DNA from: Megalonaias nervosa
Lineage: Eukaryota > Mollusca > Bivalvia > Unionida > Unionidae
DNA length: 64,000 nt
Assembly: GCA_016617855.1 (NCBI GenBank)
Contig: JAECUM010004393.1
Location: 1-64,000 of the forward strand
Direction: 5' to 3'
The stretch's first letter is position 1, and each line of letters starts with the position of its first letter. Shown piece by piece: positions 57,865 through 63,882 of the stretch. The position numbers and the translations under genes are program-made. Below the pieces are notes generated by a model, which saw nothing but the letters and a program-made list of their open reading frames with translations, was not told where the DNA came from and did not search any database.

Positions 57865-58324
57865 AGTAGTATAGTGGGGTACCGTAGCGACAATGGGAAT
57901 TAGCATTACAGACCCCCCCTGGGCCAGTATAGCGACAAGAAGTAGGTCAACACCCTGGGCCTGTATAGCGACAATGGAAAATGGAGTAGAGGGGCTAGAA
58001 CACCCTGGGCCTGTATAGCGACAATGGAAAATGGAGTAGAGGGCCTAGAACACCCTGGGCCTGTATAGCGACAATGGAAATTTTGTAGAGCGGTGACTAG
58101 GAGCCTGTGGGTTTGTAGAGCGATAAGCGACAGGTGGCATGACGTCACACTGGTAACAATGTAGCAAAAAGAGAAGTACTGTGACGTCAAGCTACCTGAG
58201 AGAGGGGTATAGACAAACACGAATCAAGAGCGTTCGTGTTTCTTTTAGTAGAGGAAGGGTTTTATATATATTCGTTTAGGGGGAGACCAAATGAAAATTA
58301 AGATCTTTTCGAGGTATTGGAAGT
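57865..58324. mobile_element. Candidate left terminus of the Polinton
   Basis: Base composition changes sharply where Penelope sequence stops. The sequence from 57865 begins AGTAGTATAGTGGGG; Polinton ends commonly begin AG. It holds a 50-bp tandem repeat (57914-58085), two TGACGTCA palindromes (58140-58147, 58182-58189) and a perfect 9-bp inverted repeat aaacacgaa/ttcgtgttt (58215-58241). The other end is outside the window, so terminal inversion and a 6-bp target duplication cannot be tested. Confidence 0.45.
57914..58085. repeat. 50-bp tandem repeat, about 3.4 copies
   Basis: 'caccctgggcctgtatagcg' recurs at 57951, 58001 and 58051, followed by 'acaatggaaaatggagtag'. A partial unit starts at 57914. 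Confidence 0.92.
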
Positions 58325-58340
58325 GGCCCTGAAAAGGGCC
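58325..58340 (-). terminator. Histone-type 3' stem-loop of cassette gene 1
   Basis: Minus strand GGCCCTTTTCAGGGCC: a 6-bp stem and TTTC loop, preceded by ACAAA and followed, 10 nt on, by a purine-rich CTCGAAAAGATC. This is the arrangement of replication-dependent histone mRNA 3' ends (stem-loop bound by SLBP, then the U7 target element). It lies 14 nt after the stop codon. No AATAAA lies nearby. Confidence 0.75.
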
Positions 58341-58354
58341 TTTGTCTTCTTCTT

Positions 58355-58933
58355 CTATTGTCTCCACTTCTTCCACCATGTTCTCACTTTGGCAAAAATT
58401 CCTTTCTTCTTTTCTTCTTCGGGCATCCAGTCAGGATGTCCGAGAGCTCTGAATTTGTCTTGCACTTTCATCCAATTGTTGTTCAATTTCTCAAACTCTT
58501 CTTTCTTTTTTTGGTTTTCTTTGTCCTTTCTTTCTTTCTTCCACGTTTCCTTGATCTTCTTTACTTCTTCTTCCAGTACTTTTCTCATTGGGTCTTCGCC
58601 TTTCTTGATATTATCTAAGCCTTTTTTGACAAAAGGCCACTCCATTAAATGGAAGATGTCTTCCAAAAAACATTTCACTTGGATCACAGTATCCAGAACC
58701 TGCTTTAAGGTTCCCACTCTGAAGTATTTAGGATTGATGATTCCTCTCAACTTATCCGCTTCTTCTATTGTTATCATTTGCAAATGATAACTTGCTGCTT
58801 TCAAACTGTTCACCAAGTCTAGGCTACCTGGGAACTTCCATTCTTTGTCAAGTCTGTCCAGCACATAGGCTCCATCCATGATCCACCACCAACTATCTGT
58901 TAACTTGTTAAATAATTCTATGCTGCCAGTCAT
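58355..58933 (-). CDS. Polinton cassette gene 1, unknown protein, 192 aa
   Basis: I do not recognise a family. The protein starts MTGSIELFNKLTDSWWWIMD with a tryptophan-rich N-terminus, has a helical middle (about 40-100), then a long Lys/Glu-rich stretch (residues 105-155) that looks like a coiled coil, and a basic Trp-containing C-terminus ending WWKKWRQ. No signal peptide or clear membrane segment. The start is fixed by the TATA box about 45 nt upstream, leaving a leader of roughly 20 nt. It is the gene nearest the element's left end. Size, charge and position would suit a small virion or DNA-associated protein, but that is speculation. Confidence 0.78.
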   Translation of the reverse strand: MTGSIELFNKLTDSWWWIMDGAYVLDRLDKEWKFPGSLDLVNSLKAASYHLQMITIEEADKLRGIINPKYFRVGTLKQVLDTVIQVKCFLEDIFHLMEWPFVKKGLDNIKKGEDPMRKVLEEEVKKIKETWKKERKDKENQKKKEEFEKLNNNWMKVQDKFRALGHPDWMPEEEKKKGIFAKVRTWWKKWRQ

Positions 58934-58976
58934 TTTTTATTCTGTGTAGAATGGCGCGAATGACGAACGCTATGCT

Positions 58977-59025
58977 TTTATATACTTCAAGCACGGACGT
59001 GAAGGAAAACATGCCTTACACTCAC
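58977..59025 (-). promoter_or_regulatory. Cassette promoter P1
   Basis: Minus strand: AGGCATGTTTTCCTT, then CACGTCCGTG (58992-59001), 7 nt, then TATATAAA (58977-58984). Nearly identical in order and spacing to P2 and P3. Confidence 0.8.
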
Positions 59026-59027
59026 TT

Positions 59028-59700
59028 CACATATGATATACTATCCTCACCAACGAACGAGCAAGCATAAAACACACACACTATACTATCCTCACCAACG
59101 AACGAGCAAGCATAAAACACACAATATACTATCCTCACCAACGAACGAGCATACATAAAACACACAAACATACCATCCACACAATCGGGATGAGAAAAAA
59201 ACACACACTATACTATCCACACCAACGAACGAGCAAGCATAAAACACACACTATACTATCCTCACCAACGAACGAGCAAGCATAAAACACACAATATACT
59301 ATCCTCACCAACGAACGAGCAAGCATAAAACACACAAACATACCATCCACACAATCGGGATGAGAAAAAAACATATTATATACTATCCTCACCAACGAAC
59401 GAGCAAGCATAAAACACACAAACATACCATCCACACAATCGGGATGAGAAAAAAACATATTATATACTATCCTCACCAACGAACGAGCAAGCATAAAACA
59501 CACACTATACTATCCTCACCAACGAACGAGCAAGCATAAAACACACACTATACTATCCTCACCAACGAACGAGCAAGCATAAAACACACACTATACTATC
59601 CTCACCAACGAACGAGCAAGCATAAAACACACACTATACTATCACACCAACGAAGGAAGAGAAGAAAAACACACCCCCATATACTATTCACACCAACGAA
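59028..59700. repeat. 43-bp tandem repeat between cassettes 1 and 2
   Basis: Units 'ctatactatcctcaccaac' plus 'gaacgagcaagcataaaacacaca', about 10 copies. A longer variant inserts 'aacataccatccacacaatc' and 'gggatgagaaaaaaaca' at 59165, 59337 and 59420. Ends in degenerate units and an (AC)n at 59712-59744. It lies directly upstream of P1. Confidence 0.94.
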
Positions 59701-59707
59701 CGCGCAT

Positions 59708-59747
<40 letters not shown>

Positions 59748-59835
59748 CAGTAAAGAGTGAGTGTTTATAGTCACACTACACTACATTCACACGAATTGGC
59801 AAATTGAATAAGTTCTCTTTTCTAGAGATCTGGTT

Positions 59836-59851
59836 AGCCCTGAGAAGGGCT
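59836..59851 (-). terminator. Histone-type 3' stem-loop of cassette gene 2
   Basis: Minus strand AGCCCTTCTCAGGGCT with TCTC loop, 27 nt after the stop, followed by a purine-rich CTAGAAAAGAGAAC. The loop keeps the U-N-U-N pattern and the second stem pair is G-C, as in histone stem-loops. Confidence 0.75.
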
Positions 59852-59878
59852 GTGTTTTTAAACTTCAGATGCACCTGG

Positions 59879-60406
59879 CTAATGGTGACATCTCCCAGGG
59901 CGGGCACCACACACGCATCGCCGGCTCCAATCCTGCTCCCAATTGATGCGTGTGGTTGGGAGCGCAGAGGGAGGTTGATTTGCTTCACTATCCCACTCCT
60001 CAGTTTGAGGGATAGTGAATACTTGTTCCCTTCTTCTTCTATTTATCACCCTGGGATGCTGACGTCGAGGCTCCCACTCTTGCCTCTGCCTTTCCAATTC
60101 CTCCTCCCAATTTTCAATTTGAGGGACAGCAGCTCTCGGTCGTTGTGGTACTGGTAGTGGCTGCGGTGTTGGTAGTGGTTGTGTAGGCGTCCTCACCTCA
60201 GGTTTGACCTCACACTGAGGTCTCAGCATGAGGTGAGGTAGTATCCCTCTCTTCATTTCCTTCTCCTCTTCTTTCTTTCTCTTCTTCTCTTCTTCTTCTA
60301 TCCTTGCTTCCTCCGCTACAGCCTCCATAGCCAGTTCGTCTAGCAGACGTCTGGCATACTCCAGGTGCATCTGAAGTTCCAGTAATTTTGCAATTCTGTT
60401 ACTCAT
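59879..60406 (-). CDS. Polinton cassette gene 2, unknown Pro/Arg/Glu-rich protein, 175 aa
   Basis: Starts MSNRIAKLLELQMHLEYARR, an amphipathic helix shared with cassette gene 3 (MPSRLAQLNEAYVNLHRVRL). Then an E/K-rich coiled coil (about residues 30-55), a proline-rich linker (75-95), an E/R-rich stretch and a short Cys/His C-terminus (RRCVCGARPGRCHH). The frame is open upstream to 60493, but the TATA box at 60458-60465 lies inside that extension, so the ATG at 60406 is the start. Function unknown; low-complexity sequence suggests a structural or nucleic-acid-associated role. Confidence 0.75.
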   Translation of the reverse strand: MSNRIAKLLELQMHLEYARRLLDELAMEAVAEEARIEEEEKKRKKEEEKEMKRGILPHLMLRPQCEVKPEVRTPTQPLPTPQPLPVPQRPRAAVPQIENWEEELERQRQEWEPRRQHPRVINRRRREQVFTIPQTEEWDSEANQPPSALPTTRINWEQDWSRRCVCGARPGRCHH

Positions 60407-60413
60407 TTTCAAT

Positions 60414-60427
60414 GTTGACGAGTCAAC
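60414..60427. promoter_or_regulatory. Leader palindrome of gene 2
   Basis: gttgacgagtcaac, a 6-bp inverted repeat, 7 nt before the ATG. The same 14-mer is found before gene 3. Confidence 0.7.
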
Positions 60428-60457
60428 GATGGATAGCCAGACTGACGATCGCACCAA

Positions 60458-60505
60458 TTTATATACTTGAAGCACGGACGTGAAAGTAAACATTCCCTAG
60501 CACTC
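60458..60505 (-). promoter_or_regulatory. Cassette promoter P2
   Basis: Minus strand: GGGAATGTTTACTTT, CACGTCCGTG (60473-60482), 7 nt, TATATAAA (60458-60465). Same spacing as P1 and P3. Confidence 0.8.
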
Positions 60506-60589
60506 AAATTTACCATCACACGCGGACTTAAAAGAAGCACTCACGTTTACTTTTTACTTACAAACACAGACAGACACAATTGGACAAGA

Positions 60590-60707
60590 CAGAGAAACGA
60601 AGTGCTTATAGGCACACTTCTATTTTTTTGTAAACATACAAACACACGAATATTTTGTTTTACTGACAAAAGAAACGAAGTGCTTATAGACACACTTCTA
60701 TTTTCTA
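60590..60707. repeat. Two direct repeats between cassettes 2 and 3
   Basis: 'agaaacgaagtgcttatag' plus 'gcacacttctatttt' at about 60592 recurs at about 60670 with one change. Confidence 0.85.
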
Positions 60708-60758
60708 ATGACAAATTTTGGCAAATTGAATGAGTATGTCTTTTCGAGAGTATTGGGT

Positions 60759-60774
60759 AGCCCTGAAAAGGGCT
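60759..60774 (-). terminator. Histone-type 3' stem-loop of cassette gene 3
   Basis: Minus strand AGCCCTTTTCAGGGCT, 37 nt after the stop, followed by ACCCAATACTCTCGAAAAGAC: the ACCCA that typically follows histone stem-loops and a purine-rich GAAAAGA. Confidence 0.78.
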
Positions 60775-60811: not shown

Positions 60812-60937
60812 TTACTGTCTAAGATTGCGTCCCCGTCTGGCAGTAGGCTTTCCTATTGGATACGGTCTGCTTCTGCGAAAAGAGAAAGAGAATTCTTTGG
60901 TGTCTACTCGACAGTCCACAAAACCTCTGTCTGGTTC

Positions 60938-60973
<36 letters not shown>

Positions 60974-61192
60974 TTGTTCTTCTCTCTGCTTCTTCTGAAG
61001 TCTGTATTTCTCAGTCCATTCTTCTTGTTCTTTTTTAATTTCCTCTCTAAACATCTCTTCTATCAGACCTTGGACTGTGGAGAGCATTCTAACATTCTCT
61101 ATTTCTTCAGGCTTCGGTATCAGGTTTAGCCTGACACGATGCAAATTGACATAAGCTTCGTTCAGCTGGGCTAGTCTGGAAGGCATCTTCAT
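60812..61192 (-). CDS. Polinton cassette gene 3, unknown coiled-coil protein, ~126 aa
   Basis: Starts MKMPSRLAQL (or at MPSRL, 61186). N-terminal helix like that of gene 2, then a helical region with EEMFREEIKKEQEEW, a run of about 11 Gln (CAG repeat near 60940-60972) and a basic C-terminus (RRSRPYPIGKPTARRGRN). The ATG at 61252 lies upstream of the TATA box and cannot be used. Probably a paralog of gene 2. The polyglutamine tract may vary between copies. Confidence 0.75.
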
Positions 61193-61238: not shown

Positions 61239-61284
61239 TTTATATGGTTCAAACGCGGACGCGATAGAAAACATCCCTACTCGG
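61239..61284 (-). promoter_or_regulatory. Cassette promoter P3
   Basis: Minus strand: GGGATGTTTTCTAT, CGCGTCCGCG (61254-61263), 7 nt, CATATAAA (61239-61246). The inverted repeat differs from P1 and P2 by paired changes that keep the symmetry. Confidence 0.78.
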
Positions 61285-61408: not shown

Positions 61409-61414
61409 TTTATT
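61409..61414 (-). terminator. Poly(A) signal of the capsid-protease block
   Basis: AATAAA on the minus strand, 54 nt after the protease stop, within short 'acttgtt' direct repeats. It is the only such signal found after any gene of the block. Confidence 0.65.
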
Positions 61415-61467: not shown

Positions 61468-62025
61468 TTATTTTTGACAAGGTTGACAACGTTGTGAAAT
61501 CATGTGAGATTTCCATTGATGGAAGTCATGAGGCCATTGATGTACACTACGTTTCCTAGCTAAAGACAAAAGATAACTATAATGGTCACAAAACCATCGA
61601 TCTATTTTCTCATCGTTTCTAGAAGAGTGACGATCAAAATAAGTCACTAAATGTTCTAAAGGATATCCAAGACTGCGTTGATGAAGAAAATATACACAAT
61701 ATTGTCCACACACCATGGAATCTGTGCCTTGTAATTTCACATTATTGTATCGTGTCGTCTGGGCATTTCTTCTCATAAAGTCAATGATATCGTCTTCCAA
61801 AGGGGGTAATCCATACGAATCAAAATATTCCACACAATTCTCTTGAGGGAAGTAGACGGCAACCCAGTGAGTGCCTGGAAGATGACTTTCGTCCGTGTTG
61901 ATGACATAAGCTTGATGGTCTTTAGGTTTGCGATGAGGTAGTTCATCTTTAGCGCACACGACAGGATTCCAAGAAGCAGTATACGAACTATTGTTCAAAA
62001 GGTAATAAAGTTCCCAGGTATCCAT
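61468..62025 (-). CDS. PRO: Polinton adenain-type cysteine protease
   Basis: 185 aa. Capsid maturation protease of the adenain (C5)/Ulp1-like fold. Visible landmarks: GTHWVAVYF with His53, CVEYFDSYG with Asp69 after the expected gap, LQGTDSMVCGQYC with Gln99 (oxyanion) and the nucleophile Cys106. Length is typical for Polinton and adenoviral enzymes (about 180-210). All catalytic residues are present, so it could be active. It is expected to cleave capsid-associated proteins during particle assembly. Last gene of the block, starting 25 bp after the stop of the preceding gene and followed by a poly(A) signal. Confidence 0.92.
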   Translation of the reverse strand: MDTWELYYLLNNSSYTASWNPVVCAKDELPHRKPKDHQAYVINTDESHLPGTHWVAVYFPQENCVEYFDSYGLPPLEDDIIDFMRRNAQTTRYNNVKLQGTDSMVCGQYCVYFLHQRSLGYPLEHLVTYFDRHSSRNDEKIDRWFCDHYSYLLSLARKRSVHQWPHDFHQWKSHMISQRCQPCQK

Positions 62026-62050: not shown

Positions 62051-62557
62051 TCACAGGTAATGATAAGTCATCAATTCAATTCTGACTTTTTGTTTGAAAC
62101 GATCTGTCAAGTATCCGTTTCTTTGCCTTGTCTCCGCACTCTGGGCTAAGAGAGCTTCGATGCGATAGATCTCTAGAGTAGTCAGTGGAGGACAGGAATG
62201 ATCACGCAAGCCTTTATACCACTCATGCAACACGGTTTCTTCTGAGATGAGACTCCAAGCGTCGTCCAGATACTCGTCCAATTTTTCTTCTTGACTCATC
62301 ATCATACATTTATCGTGTTGAATTTGACTGGGATGATCGTTTTGACATCCGTAACAATCTTTCTTGGACAATTCCGTAATGGTATTCGCTAGGTGTTTAG
62401 CAAAACAGGACACTAAATGTTGTTCTTGTTCTGGCCATCTGGACTTGACGACTACCTCGTCCTCTTTGACTTCGTCTGGGGGTTCTGTTTTCACGCTATC
62501 CTCCCATTCCATGTCCAAAGATTCTCCATTGTTTAAAGAGGGATAGGAGTCTTCCAT
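62051..62557 (-). CDS. Small Polinton protein with Cys/His motif
   Basis: 168 aa. An acidic N-terminus (MEDSYPSLNNGESLDMEWED) leads into a central CYGCQNDHPSQIQHDKCMM, with the Cys and His spacing of a possible metal site (C-x2-C-x4-H-x5-H-x2-C). The C-terminal half is helical. I recall similar small proteins with a CYGC..HPSQ..H..C motif beside the capsid gene in invertebrate Polintons and adintoviruses, but no function. The start lies 5 bp after the capsid stop codon and its own stop 25 bp before the protease ATG, so it must share an mRNA or be reached by some unusual means. Confidence 0.82.
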   Translation of the reverse strand: MEDSYPSLNNGESLDMEWEDSVKTEPPDEVKEDEVVVKSRWPEQEQHLVSCFAKHLANTITELSKKDCYGCQNDHPSQIQHDKCMMMSQEEKLDEYLDDAWSLISEETVLHEWYKGLRDHSCPPLTTLEIYRIEALLAQSAETRQRNGYLTDRFKQKVRIELMTYHYL

Positions 62558-62562
62558 TGTGT

Positions 62563-63882
62563 CTAATAGTCTAGAATGACTTCTCTCAAACTGTTGATTT
62601 CTATGGTATTATCGAATTCAGCATACAGGATGACGTTGACCGTCTCAGTGAGAGCTTCTGCAAACTGAAGTTCCACACGCAGTTGACCGGATTTTATAGG
62701 GTGGAAATGTCCCTCGTCGCTGCCTTGGTCTGGAGTGAAATCAAAGGCCCACAAAGTGTAACCTCCGACATAATCTTCGTACGAAATACCGTGACTGGTG
62801 TTGGTTCCTAGTTGCCCCGTAGCTTCGTACAGGGACAAGTACGATCTCAAGTAATTCTTCTGGGCAAAGTTAGGTTCGAAGGGTCTGGTACACAAAGTCT
62901 TGCCATCGCGACTGACTTCAATTTTGGACACTCTGTAGTGCTTAAACTGGAAAGGATTTTGATCGTGGGCTCCGTTGAAGGCTGCATTACTGACGATACC
63001 AACGATTAAACGTTTGGGTAACTGTCCTTGGAACAGATGATCTTCGATCTTGGATCGGAGTCCAGTAGCAATGGTGAATGTTTTCACTTCGACACGTCGT
63101 ATCGGATATTTGGCGGTCGATCTGCTCAATGTTTGACTGATGTCGTTTCCCGCTTTAGGTAACACTTCTACACGTCGCACGTAAAGTCTGGCTTCTTGGA
63201 TGATGGTTTTGTACTCGTTGGCTTGAGCCATCAAATGGAAAGCGACACTGCTGCGATTGAGTCTCAGGCGAATATCCACTCCGTTCAGCAAATACTTCTC
63301 TTGCAACCACATGTCCAAATGCAAACGATCCATCAGTTCTAAACTACGACCTTGCAGGATTTTCCTTCGACGATCGTTAAAACCCACATTGTGAGGATCG
63401 TCAGCTGCTGTCAGGGCTCTGTCGTTAAACGTGTTGTCACCTGCGGTGTCAGGTTTCCATACCACGCAAGCATCCAGATGAGTGTTCTTGACCTCTTTTC
63501 CGTACGTCAAGAGATTTTCTAGGTACGCTCGGTAAGGGTAAGTATCCGTGCTACTGCTGATCAGTTTGTTATTCAAGTACAAATCCACTTCGCTGAACAA
63601 GGAATGCATGAAATTGTTGACGGGAGCTACTGCGGCATCGGCTCCCGGATTGGTGTTGTCGGTTTTGATCACTTTCAGCTTTAGATACAAGTAACTATTA
63701 TTCAGATCGATGTAATCTTCGGGCTGTCCTTTGATTTCAAACTCGATGGGAGCGGAATCCACCAAAGAGGAGACGGGATGAAATTCGACCCATTGGGATT
63801 CTTGCATCGTCATCATGGTGGGTGGCATGGCAAACAGATCCAGTTCCGACTTGGAACAAGCACAAGACTCTCGGTGCATCAT
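62563..63882 (-). CDS. MCP: Polinton major capsid protein
   Basis: 439 aa. Belongs to the invertebrate family annotated 'uncharacterized protein F54H12.2-like', which are Polinton/adintovirus capsid proteins with a double jelly-roll fold. Landmarks: YIDLNNSYLYLKLKV (about residues 55-70), HSLFSEVDLYLNNKLISS (about 92-109), YPYRAYLENLLTYGKE (about 115-130), an LNGVDIRLRLNRS strand pair (about 199) and a C-terminal GYTLWAFDFT with SGQLRVELQF. Starts MMHRES, 28 bp after the stop of the upstream gene; a second in-frame Met follows directly. Complete and uninterrupted. Expected to form hexon-like trimers if particles are made. Confidence 0.93.
   Translation of the reverse strand: MMHRESCACSKSELDLFAMPPTMMTMQESQWVEFHPVSSLVDSAPIEFEIKGQPEDYIDLNNSYLYLKLKVIKTDNTNPGADAAVAPVNNFMHSLFSEVDLYLNNKLISSSTDTYPYRAYLENLLTYGKEVKNTHLDACVVWKPDTAGDNTFNDRALTAADDPHNVGFNDRRRKILQGRSLELMDRLHLDMWLQEKYLLNGVDIRLRLNRSSVAFHLMAQANEYKTIIQEARLYVRRVEVLPKAGNDISQTLSRSTAKYPIRRVEVKTFTIATGLRSKIEDHLFQGQLPKRLIVGIVSNAAFNGAHDQNPFQFKHYRVSKIEVSRDGKTLCTRPFEPNFAQKNYLRSYLSLYEATGQLGTNTSHGISYEDYVGGYTLWAFDFTPDQGSDEGHFHPIKSGQLRVELQFAEALTETVNVILYAEFDNTIEINSLREVILDY

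Follow-up and report, generated by a model that had tools for sequence, protein, structure and literature searches.

Histone-type hairpins in the window

The locus raises the question of whether genes of a virus-like mobile element in the bivalve Megalonaias nervosa end in the RNA hairpin that, in animals, is otherwise the signal of histone messages. The window, the whole 64-kb stretch of DNA analysed, contains three histone-type hairpins, all on the minus strand, exactly at the positions and with the stem and loop form given in the original prediction:

58325..58340, minus strand: gene-1 histone-type hairpin GGCCCUUUUCAGGGCC, within the terminal inverted repeat (RF00032, 34.4 bits, E 3.5e-6, above the gathering score of 34)
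59836..59851, minus strand: gene-2 histone-type hairpin AGCCCUUCUCAGGGCU (RF00032, 23.3 bits, E 0.046, below the gathering score)
60759..60774, minus strand: gene-3 histone-type hairpin AGCCCUUUUCAGGGCU, then ACCCA (RF00032, 31.9 bits, E 3e-5, below the gathering score)

These three hairpins are the only Rfam Histone3 (RF00032) matches in the window, all with E < 0.05, and the E-values already cover all 4227 families. The covariance model of the histone 3' stem-loop, proposed as a check of the prediction, thus gave scores far above chance, with the gathering score reached by the gene-1 hairpin alone and two of the three hairpins below it. A strict search over both strands of the 64 kb, for a perfect 6-bp stem with G-C as its second pair and a loop with U in positions 1 and 3, returned the same 3 sites only. 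In 60 Markov-simulated windows, the strict hairpin occurred at a mean of 0.77 sites (maximum 3), and in 0 of the 60 was it found with GAAAAGA behind it. The RF00032 matches and the strict search bear out the predicted agreement with the metazoan histone 3' end in stem length, loop and second pair. Allowing up to two mismatches, RGCYCTTTTCAGRGCY matches the three window hairpins only, against 0.30 expected, and 0 of 100 shuffles reach three. Folded alone, the hairpins have energies of -11.4, -9.0 and -9.0 kcal/mol (z about -2.3 to -2.9). A chance likeness to the histone hairpin is rejected on the Rfam scores, the mismatch search with its shuffles and the simulated windows.

Hairpin-ended genes and their promoters

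The stems lie 14, 27 and 37 nt past the stops of genes 1, 2 and 3, which reproduces the predicted range of 14-37 nt. The genes and their TATA-like boxes are as follows:

58355..58933, minus strand: gene 1, ORF of 192 aa, helical by prediction (6 homologues, 54-71% identity; dN/dS about 0.28)
59879..60406, minus strand: gene 2, ORF of 175 aa (no Pfam match at E ≤ 0.01; dN/dS about 0.17)
60812..61192, minus strand: gene 3, ORF of 126 aa, glutamine-rich (no Pfam match above the cut-off; dN/dS about 0.28)
58977..58984, minus strand: TATA-like box of gene 1, inside a 42-nt block common to genes 1, 2 and 3 (repeat family D6)
60458..60465, minus strand: TATA-like box of gene 2 (repeat family D6)
61239..61246, minus strand: TATA-like box of gene 3 (repeat family D6)

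Judged by dN/dS (for gene 1, with frames recovered in 17/21), genes 1-3 are under purifying selection. The protease gene has a dN/dS of 1.18 at a dS of 0.014, in a set that includes short frames, and this ratio says nothing about selection. The AlphaFold2 model of the gene-1 product has a mean pLDDT of 75.7, and neither PDB nor the viral models offer a counterpart of its fold at E ≤ 0.001.

Copy C9319, the sole copy of which both ends were read, carries two further hairpin-ended genes (X and Y) at the polymerase end, five in total. The predicted number of three genes therefore stands for the window and not for this copy. Likewise, the claimed absence of hairpins from the rest of the element is true of the part inside the window, but the element extends beyond it. 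None of genes 1, 2, 3, X and Y has a histone Pfam match, so that each may be said to have an end that works like that of a histone gene, not to be a histone gene. Their five proteins show no mutual similarity at E < 0.1. The genes had been described as unrelated-looking or distantly paralogous; their 3' cassettes are alike. In genes 2, 3 and Y the common sequence extends beyond GAAAAGA, indicating that copying took place.

Purine element, poly(A) signals and predicted 3' end processing

A purine element of the GAAAAGA type is needed for the cleavage step only. It had been predicted 10-20 nt past each stem and was found at a tighter spacing:

58304..58310, minus strand: GAAAAGA purine element (HDE-like) of gene 1, 14 nt past the stem (no variable site in 19 aligned sequences)
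59816..59822, minus strand: GAAAAGA purine element of gene 2, 13 nt past the stem (no variable site in 20 aligned sequences)
60739..60745, minus strand: GAAAAGA purine element of gene 3, 13 nt past the stem (no variable site in 21 aligned sequences)

An excerpt of PMC7026596 gives AAAGAG as the U7-pairing core of mouse H2a. The full core is present in genes 2 and Y, and AAAGAU or AAAGAC stands in its place in genes 1, 3 and X. Neither AATAAA nor ATTAAA occurs within 600 nt downstream of the stops of genes 1-3, in line with the predicted lack of AATAAA near the hairpins, whereas the protease gene has AATAAA 54 nt past its stop.

That genes of this Polinton have histone-type 3' ends is well supported at the sequence level by the covariance score, the fixed-spacing purine element, the position and strand, the conservation in sister copies and the persistence in relatives not picked by their hairpin. 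Such ends suggest that the element borrows the histone RNA machinery of its host. The involvement of SLBP and U7, the lack of a poly(A) tail and the link to S phase are inferred, as are the roles of the proteins. With a probability of about 0.8, the accessory mRNAs are processed by SLBP and U7 without polyadenylation, and their expression follows the host histone programme, with a peak in S phase. Each accessory gene has a TATA-like promoter and a histone-type 3' end to itself, the latter composed of an SLBP-type hairpin about 50 nt or less from the stop and GAAAAGA 13-14 nt beyond. The hairpin would be bound by host SLBP and the purine element paired with U7 snRNP, and CPSF73 would cut between them, leaving an mRNA that finishes past the hairpin without poly(A). 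Such an end would make the production, translation and decay of the mRNA follow the histone programme.

It is unlikely, but of the alternatives the least so, that SLBP binds the hairpin while downstream polyadenylation of the mRNAs also occurs or even predominates, with the loop tuning translation or decay and not forming the normal 3' end. Histone genes elsewhere have downstream poly(A) signals that can be used, as in the Drosophila and human cases in an excerpt of PMC1924863. Non-canonical poly(A) signals are also possible, and gene 3 has AGTAAA at 148, 254 and 261 nt past its stop. Polyadenylation would, however, account neither for the absence of AATAAA and ATTAAA past genes 1-3 nor for the invariance of GAAAAGA, an element that cleavage alone needs, across the alignments of 19, 20 and 21 sequences.

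The Polinton element and its ends

The following further features of the element were identified in the window:

57865..58346, no strand: terminal inverted repeat, ending in AGTAGTATAG and containing the gene-1 hairpin (by blastn, pieces of 85-99% identity to the opposite terminus of copy C9319; inner limit approximate)
61468..62025, minus strand: adenovirus-type protease gene, with AATAAA at 61409-61414 (Peptidase_C5 E 0.0038, below the cut-off; homologous to the L001 and L003 ORFs)
62051..62557, minus strand: ORF of 168 aa between the capsid and protease genes
62563..63882, minus strand: Polinton-type capsid protein gene ('F54H12.2-like'; 1652 homologues)

The F54H12.2-like gene, which we take to be the Polinton capsid, is found at no fewer than 96 places in the genome, and the capsid genes found are 99-100% identical. 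Among the 120 matches listed of its 1652 homologues, those with names are from bivalves. A protein-primed-type family B DNA polymerase (PF03175, E 1.5e-42) is encoded in copy C3813 (L137), outside the window. The predicted identity of the element as a Polinton is upheld by this polymerase from another copy, the capsid, the protease (a weak match, below the cut-off) and the terminal inverted repeats. The best explanation of the element is a young, highly amplified Polinton/Maverick whose small accessory genes number at least five: three lie at the protease end and two, seen in another copy, at the polymerase end.

The terminal inverted repeats start with AG. An identical terminus with differing flanks is present in 11 of 20 copies, the other copies being without such a terminus in the stretch or pattern searched. 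As regards a 6-bp target site duplication, the flanks are unlike in C9319, the single copy with both ends. The gene-1 terminal block, with its hairpin, recurs at the opposite end of C9319, so the hairpins of genes 1 and X lie in the terminal inverted repeats and those of genes 2, 3 and Y are internal. In L105, the same terminal hairpin stands behind a different reading frame. With the outermost hairpin on each side in a terminal inverted repeat, outward transcription would stop just short of the element's edge, and a promoter and a 3' signal could be shared by unrelated reading frames. The location of the gene-1 and gene-X hairpins would also suit DNA signals of the terminal repeats, for protein binding or replication, that resemble histone loops. 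This is very improbable, since the other three hairpins are internal and all five are on the sense strand just past stops, with the purine element spaced as in histone genes.

Conservation in sister copies and divergent relatives

Sister copies were taken from 20 of the 96 listed places. Of their 58 reachable hairpins, 55 are perfect, 2 have a G-U pair and 1 has a mismatch; the loops are thus present in sister copies, and the prediction was not refuted by them. GAAAAGA is found behind all 55 perfect hairpins, at 13 nt in 38 and at 14 nt in 17. In gene 1, nucleotide diversity (pi) is 0.0046 in the hairpin plus GAAAAGA versus 0.118 and 0.181 around them (flanks vary 12-18%), the coding-end figure of 0.118 being inflated by L105, whose frame there is another gene. 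In genes 2 and 3, the hairpin plus GAAAAGA is not strikingly more invariant than its surroundings (33/300 and 59/300 windows equally invariant). L094 and L099 were left out of the gene-1 alignment and L105 out of the gene-2 alignment.

Among 50 histone-type hairpin loci of the genome examined out of 75 scored matches, 46 are relatives of the element and 0 match core histones. Of 54 gene hits, 28 were excluded because an adjacent hairpin had drawn in the locus or fewer than 110 nt followed; among the 26 related genes that remain, not chosen via their own hairpin, 17 retain six standard pairs (0.65% in shuffled sequence), and L069 and L070 look like one locus counted twice. In a separate tally of 16 distinct hairpins, one is probably false. 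The hairpin and GAAAAGA persist in relatives with proteins 52-85% identical. Functionless duplication, in which a captured histone-gene 3' end was copied within the element and kept only as the copies are young, would fit the alike cassettes of genes 2, 3 and Y and the near-identical capsid genes, but it is very improbable and was rejected because the gene-1 signals stay while their flanks diverge and because the signals persist in these divergent relatives.

Comparison with known systems

The element's hairpins share with the metazoan replication-dependent histone mRNA 3' end (RF00032; SLBP/U7 snRNP) a 6-bp stem, a 4-nt loop with U1 and U3, a G-C second pair, an A-rich 5' flank, an ACC/ACU 3' flank, a purine element 13-14 nt past the stem and a stop close by, with no canonical poly(A) signal near the three window genes. 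They differ in serving non-histone genes of a mobile element, in having C-G as pair 4 where the Rfam Histone3 consensus has U-A, and in that 2/5 belong to terminal inverted repeats. The family B DNA polymerase, capsid and protease genes and the terminal inverted repeats beginning with AG are those of a Polinton/Maverick, and the accessory genes with histone-type 3' ends set the element apart from described Polintons; no description of such genes was found in the literature. Viruses carrying histone genes (PMC9145170) are comparable as DNA viruses in contact with the histone system, but those take a protein and the element would take only an RNA 3' signal. The main text of PMC9145170 contains 0 occurrences of stem-loop, polyadenyl- or Polinton.

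With slightly better than even confidence, we propose a lineage of virus-like elements with interchangeable cassettes (a TATA-like promoter, a swappable small ORF and a histone-type 3' end, partly in terminal repeats) that yield non-polyadenylated, S-phase-limited accessory mRNAs. Such elements would be the first virus-like, non-histone users of the SLBP/U7 pathway of animals. Unrelated element genes with a histone end would show that this pathway can serve other genes, link mobile-element expression to host DNA replication, and make it possible to test how S phase becomes accessible to a DNA element. They would be natural substrates of SLBP and U7 other than histone messages and could serve as a marker in searches for such elements, whose transcripts would escape poly(A)-selected RNA-seq.

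Viral contigs, bacterial genomes and host histone genes

In viral contigs, no capsid homologues were found; the hairpin-plus-GAAAAGA pattern returned 48 stretches, in 0 of which the stem has six pairs (L031 and L046 come closest, at 5 and 4), and a longer hairpin pattern 0 matches. A scan of bacterial genome contigs (MAGs) retrieved four Polinton pieces, of which 0/4 match Histone3 at E ≤ 10, contain a strict hairpin or carry any gene homologous to genes 1-3, X or Y; the pieces are incomplete, so absence in those hosts is not shown.

When the genome was searched for host histones, 7 H4 and 27 H3 places came up, most of them partial. Of three H4 pieces (L131-L133), none matches Histone3 at E ≤ 10; L131 is a diverged H4 frame, and L132 is the end of a decayed H4 with a purine element alike by eye. 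As no host histone gene with a sound hairpin was seen, the comparison with the histone ends of the host itself is based on a single decayed gene. A repeat bearing an H3 tail, considered as a host histone, proved to be another transposon.

Histone-type hairpins after Polinton genes

Histone-type hairpins following Polinton genes were confirmed and extended in this analysis. The protease-side Polinton end forms the right end of the window on the minus strand, and three of its genes, each with its own TATA-like block of repeat family D6, end in such hairpins. The protein at 63882-62563 is presumably the capsid protein.

Features of the Polinton end, in gene order (Histone3, Rfam RF00032, gathering score 34; E-values computed over 64 kb and all 4227 Rfam families)
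63882-62563, minus: capsid-type protein gene, first in order
Between capsid-type and protease genes, minus: ORF of 168 aa
62025-61468, minus: protease gene (Peptidase_C5, E 0.0038, a weak match below the cut-off)
61192-60812, minus: gene 3
60759-60774, minus: gene 3 hairpin AGCCCUUUUCAGGGCU, 31.9 bits, E 3e-5, below the gathering score
60406-59879, minus: gene 2
59836-59851, minus: gene 2 hairpin AGCCCUUCUCAGGGCU, 23.3 bits, E 0.046, below the gathering score
58933-58355, minus: gene 1
58325-58340, minus: gene 1 hairpin GGCCCUUUUCAGGGCC, 34.4 bits, E 3.5e-6, passing the gathering score
After gene 1, outer limit 57865: terminal inverted repeat

The Rfam covariance model of the histone stem-loop matches all three hairpins of the original prediction and nothing else in the window at E≤1. 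Strict SLBP-type hairpins (6-bp stem, G-C second pair, U at loop positions 1 and 3) number three in total over both strands of the window, compared with an average of 0.77 in simulated windows (n=60), and a strict hairpin followed by the purine element GAAAAGA was found in 0/60 of these. That such hairpins follow these three genes and nowhere else holds within the window, but another copy, C9319, has two more at its polymerase end.

Two repeat arrays were also observed. An approximately 12-copy array of the 43-nt unit ATATACTATCCTCACCAACGAACGAGCAAGCATAAAACACAC (59029-59710) lies between the gene 1 promoter and the gene 2 hairpin. Short tandem repeats of approximately 50 nt (CCCTGGGCCTGTATAGCGACAATGG...) lie within the terminal inverted repeat (57917-58098), and their number differs between the ends.

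Conservation among sister copies

A search of the assembly (2.19 Gb, 54,709 contigs), in which the best candidates were scored, found at least 96 places where the capsid gene is 99-100% identical and free of stop codons. This uniformity points to a very recent amplification. The accessory genes at the ends of these copies diverge strongly (dS approximately 0.37 for genes 1 and 2). The sister copies are mosaics with a uniform core and variable ends.

The protease end was compared in 20 of these places, and the loops are present there, with 55 perfect hairpins. The gene 3 hairpin is perfect in 20/20 copies. The gene 2 hairpin is perfect in 18/20, with a G-U pair in L103 and a mismatch in L105. 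For gene 1, 17 copies have a perfect hairpin, L101 has a G-U pair, and two contigs stop short of it. The spacing from perfect hairpin to GAAAAGA is 13 nt (38 cases) or 14 nt (17 cases). In the gene 1 region, the hairpin and GAAAAGA have a mean diversity of 0.0046; the coding end has 0.118, a figure that L105 inflates, and the downstream sequence 0.181. Only 9/299 nearby segments are as poor in variable sites. For genes 2 and 3, 33/300 and 59/300 segments are equally invariant, so their invariance alone proves little. Rough mean dN/dS is 0.28 for gene 1 (17/21 frames), 0.17 for gene 2 and 0.28 for gene 3. In L105, another reading frame precedes the same terminal hairpin; this copy has retained the 3' signals while the protein was swapped.

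Five hairpin-ended genes in copy C9319

The protease end of C9319 (L092) carries all three hairpins. Its polymerase end (L138) encodes gene Y (212 aa) and gene X (84 aa, pI 10.9) in divergent arrangement, followed by Histone3 matches of 24.1 bits (E 0.0059) and 33.9 bits (E 1.3e-6), respectively. Counting both ends, C9319 carries five genes that end in hairpins, and for two of them the hairpin lies within the terminal inverted repeats. The gene X hairpin block belongs to this repeat and is identical to the gene 1 block of the window at 82/83 nt. The proteins of genes 1, 2, 3, X and Y show no mutual similarity at E below 0.1. A zinc-knuckle gene with two CCHC motifs (PF00098, E 3.6e-14; L138 835-1281), located between the polymerase and gene Y, has no histone-type hairpin of its own. 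DNA polymerase (PF03175, E 1.5e-42) was found in copy C3813, with no Histone3 match in that stretch. No target site duplication was found at the two flanks of C9319.

Divergent relatives

To examine genes not selected by their own hairpin, loci fetched for one hairpin were scored at the other hairpin-ended genes they contained (n=26: six gene 2, one gene 3, seven X and twelve Y; 52-85% protein identity). Six standard pairs were found downstream in 17/26 genes, compared with 0.65% of shuffles, and at least five in 21/26, compared with 4.9%. A purine element lies behind the loop in 22/26, and in one gene (L123) U-A replaces C-G at pair 3. These copies share ancestry and include duplicates, so the result represents conservation, not 26 independent events. 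Across 132 hairpin instances, mostly recovered with a pairing-favouring model, the first pair is G-C or A-U, and the third is C-G, U-G or rarely U-A. The protein collection contains six homologues of gene 1 (54-71% identity) and 19 of gene Y (64-93%), all on short contigs.

Polinton-type capsid genes also occur on contigs of bacterial assemblies (L001, a MAG of an Escarpia symbiont; L002, a MAG of a Bathymodiolus symbiont; L003 and L004), presumably animal or protist contamination. These four pieces contain neither histone-type hairpins nor homologues of genes 1, 2, 3, X or Y.

Purine element and 3' end formation

GAAAAGA begins 14, 13 and 13 nt after the stems of genes 1, 2 and 3, within the 10-20 nt originally described. 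In mouse H2a pre-mRNA, the purine core AAAGAG is an established U7 site, according to PMC7026596. Genes 2 and Y carry this full core; in genes 1, 3 and X its last base differs (AAAGAU or AAAGAC). There is no AATAAA, nor ATTAAA, within 600 nt for genes 1, 2 and 3. An AATAAA does occur 54 nt past the stop of the protease gene.

There is good support for reading these signals as true histone-type 3' ends maintained by selection. Judging from the sequence signals, the transcripts would most likely be SLBP- and U7-processed, lack poly(A) and be limited to S phase, as originally proposed.

The presumed novelty agrees with the open-licence literature. Full-text searches returned no paper pairing histone stem-loop with Polinton or SLBP with Maverick. 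Among the matches listed for Polinton with histone mRNA, stem-loop, promoter or polyadenylation signal, and for viral histone stem-loop use, bivalve Polintons and mollusc U7/SLBP, none describes hairpin-ended Polinton genes.

Genome-wide hairpins and host histones

Assembly-wide, 75 of 423,121 first-look RF00032 candidates were scored, and 66 were above the cut-off. Fifty of the 75 loci were examined: 46 matched element proteins or the inverted repeat, four matched neither, and 0/50 matched core histones. Host histone arrays seem largely absent from the assembly. One decayed H4 end (L132) retains ATCTCTAGGAAAGAG, by eye one base off ATCTCTAGAAAAGAG of gene 2; the hairpin of this H4 end has degenerated too far to match Histone3. 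A dispersed repeat at no fewer than 15 places, including L134 (C47150), L135 (C52996) and L136 (C34545), contains an H3-tail-like stretch of approximately 28 residues. No histone-type hairpin was seen in these three. The stretch belongs to a 51-aa frame that neighbours a transposase-like one, and the repeat looks like a DNA transposon with a captured first exon of an H3 gene.
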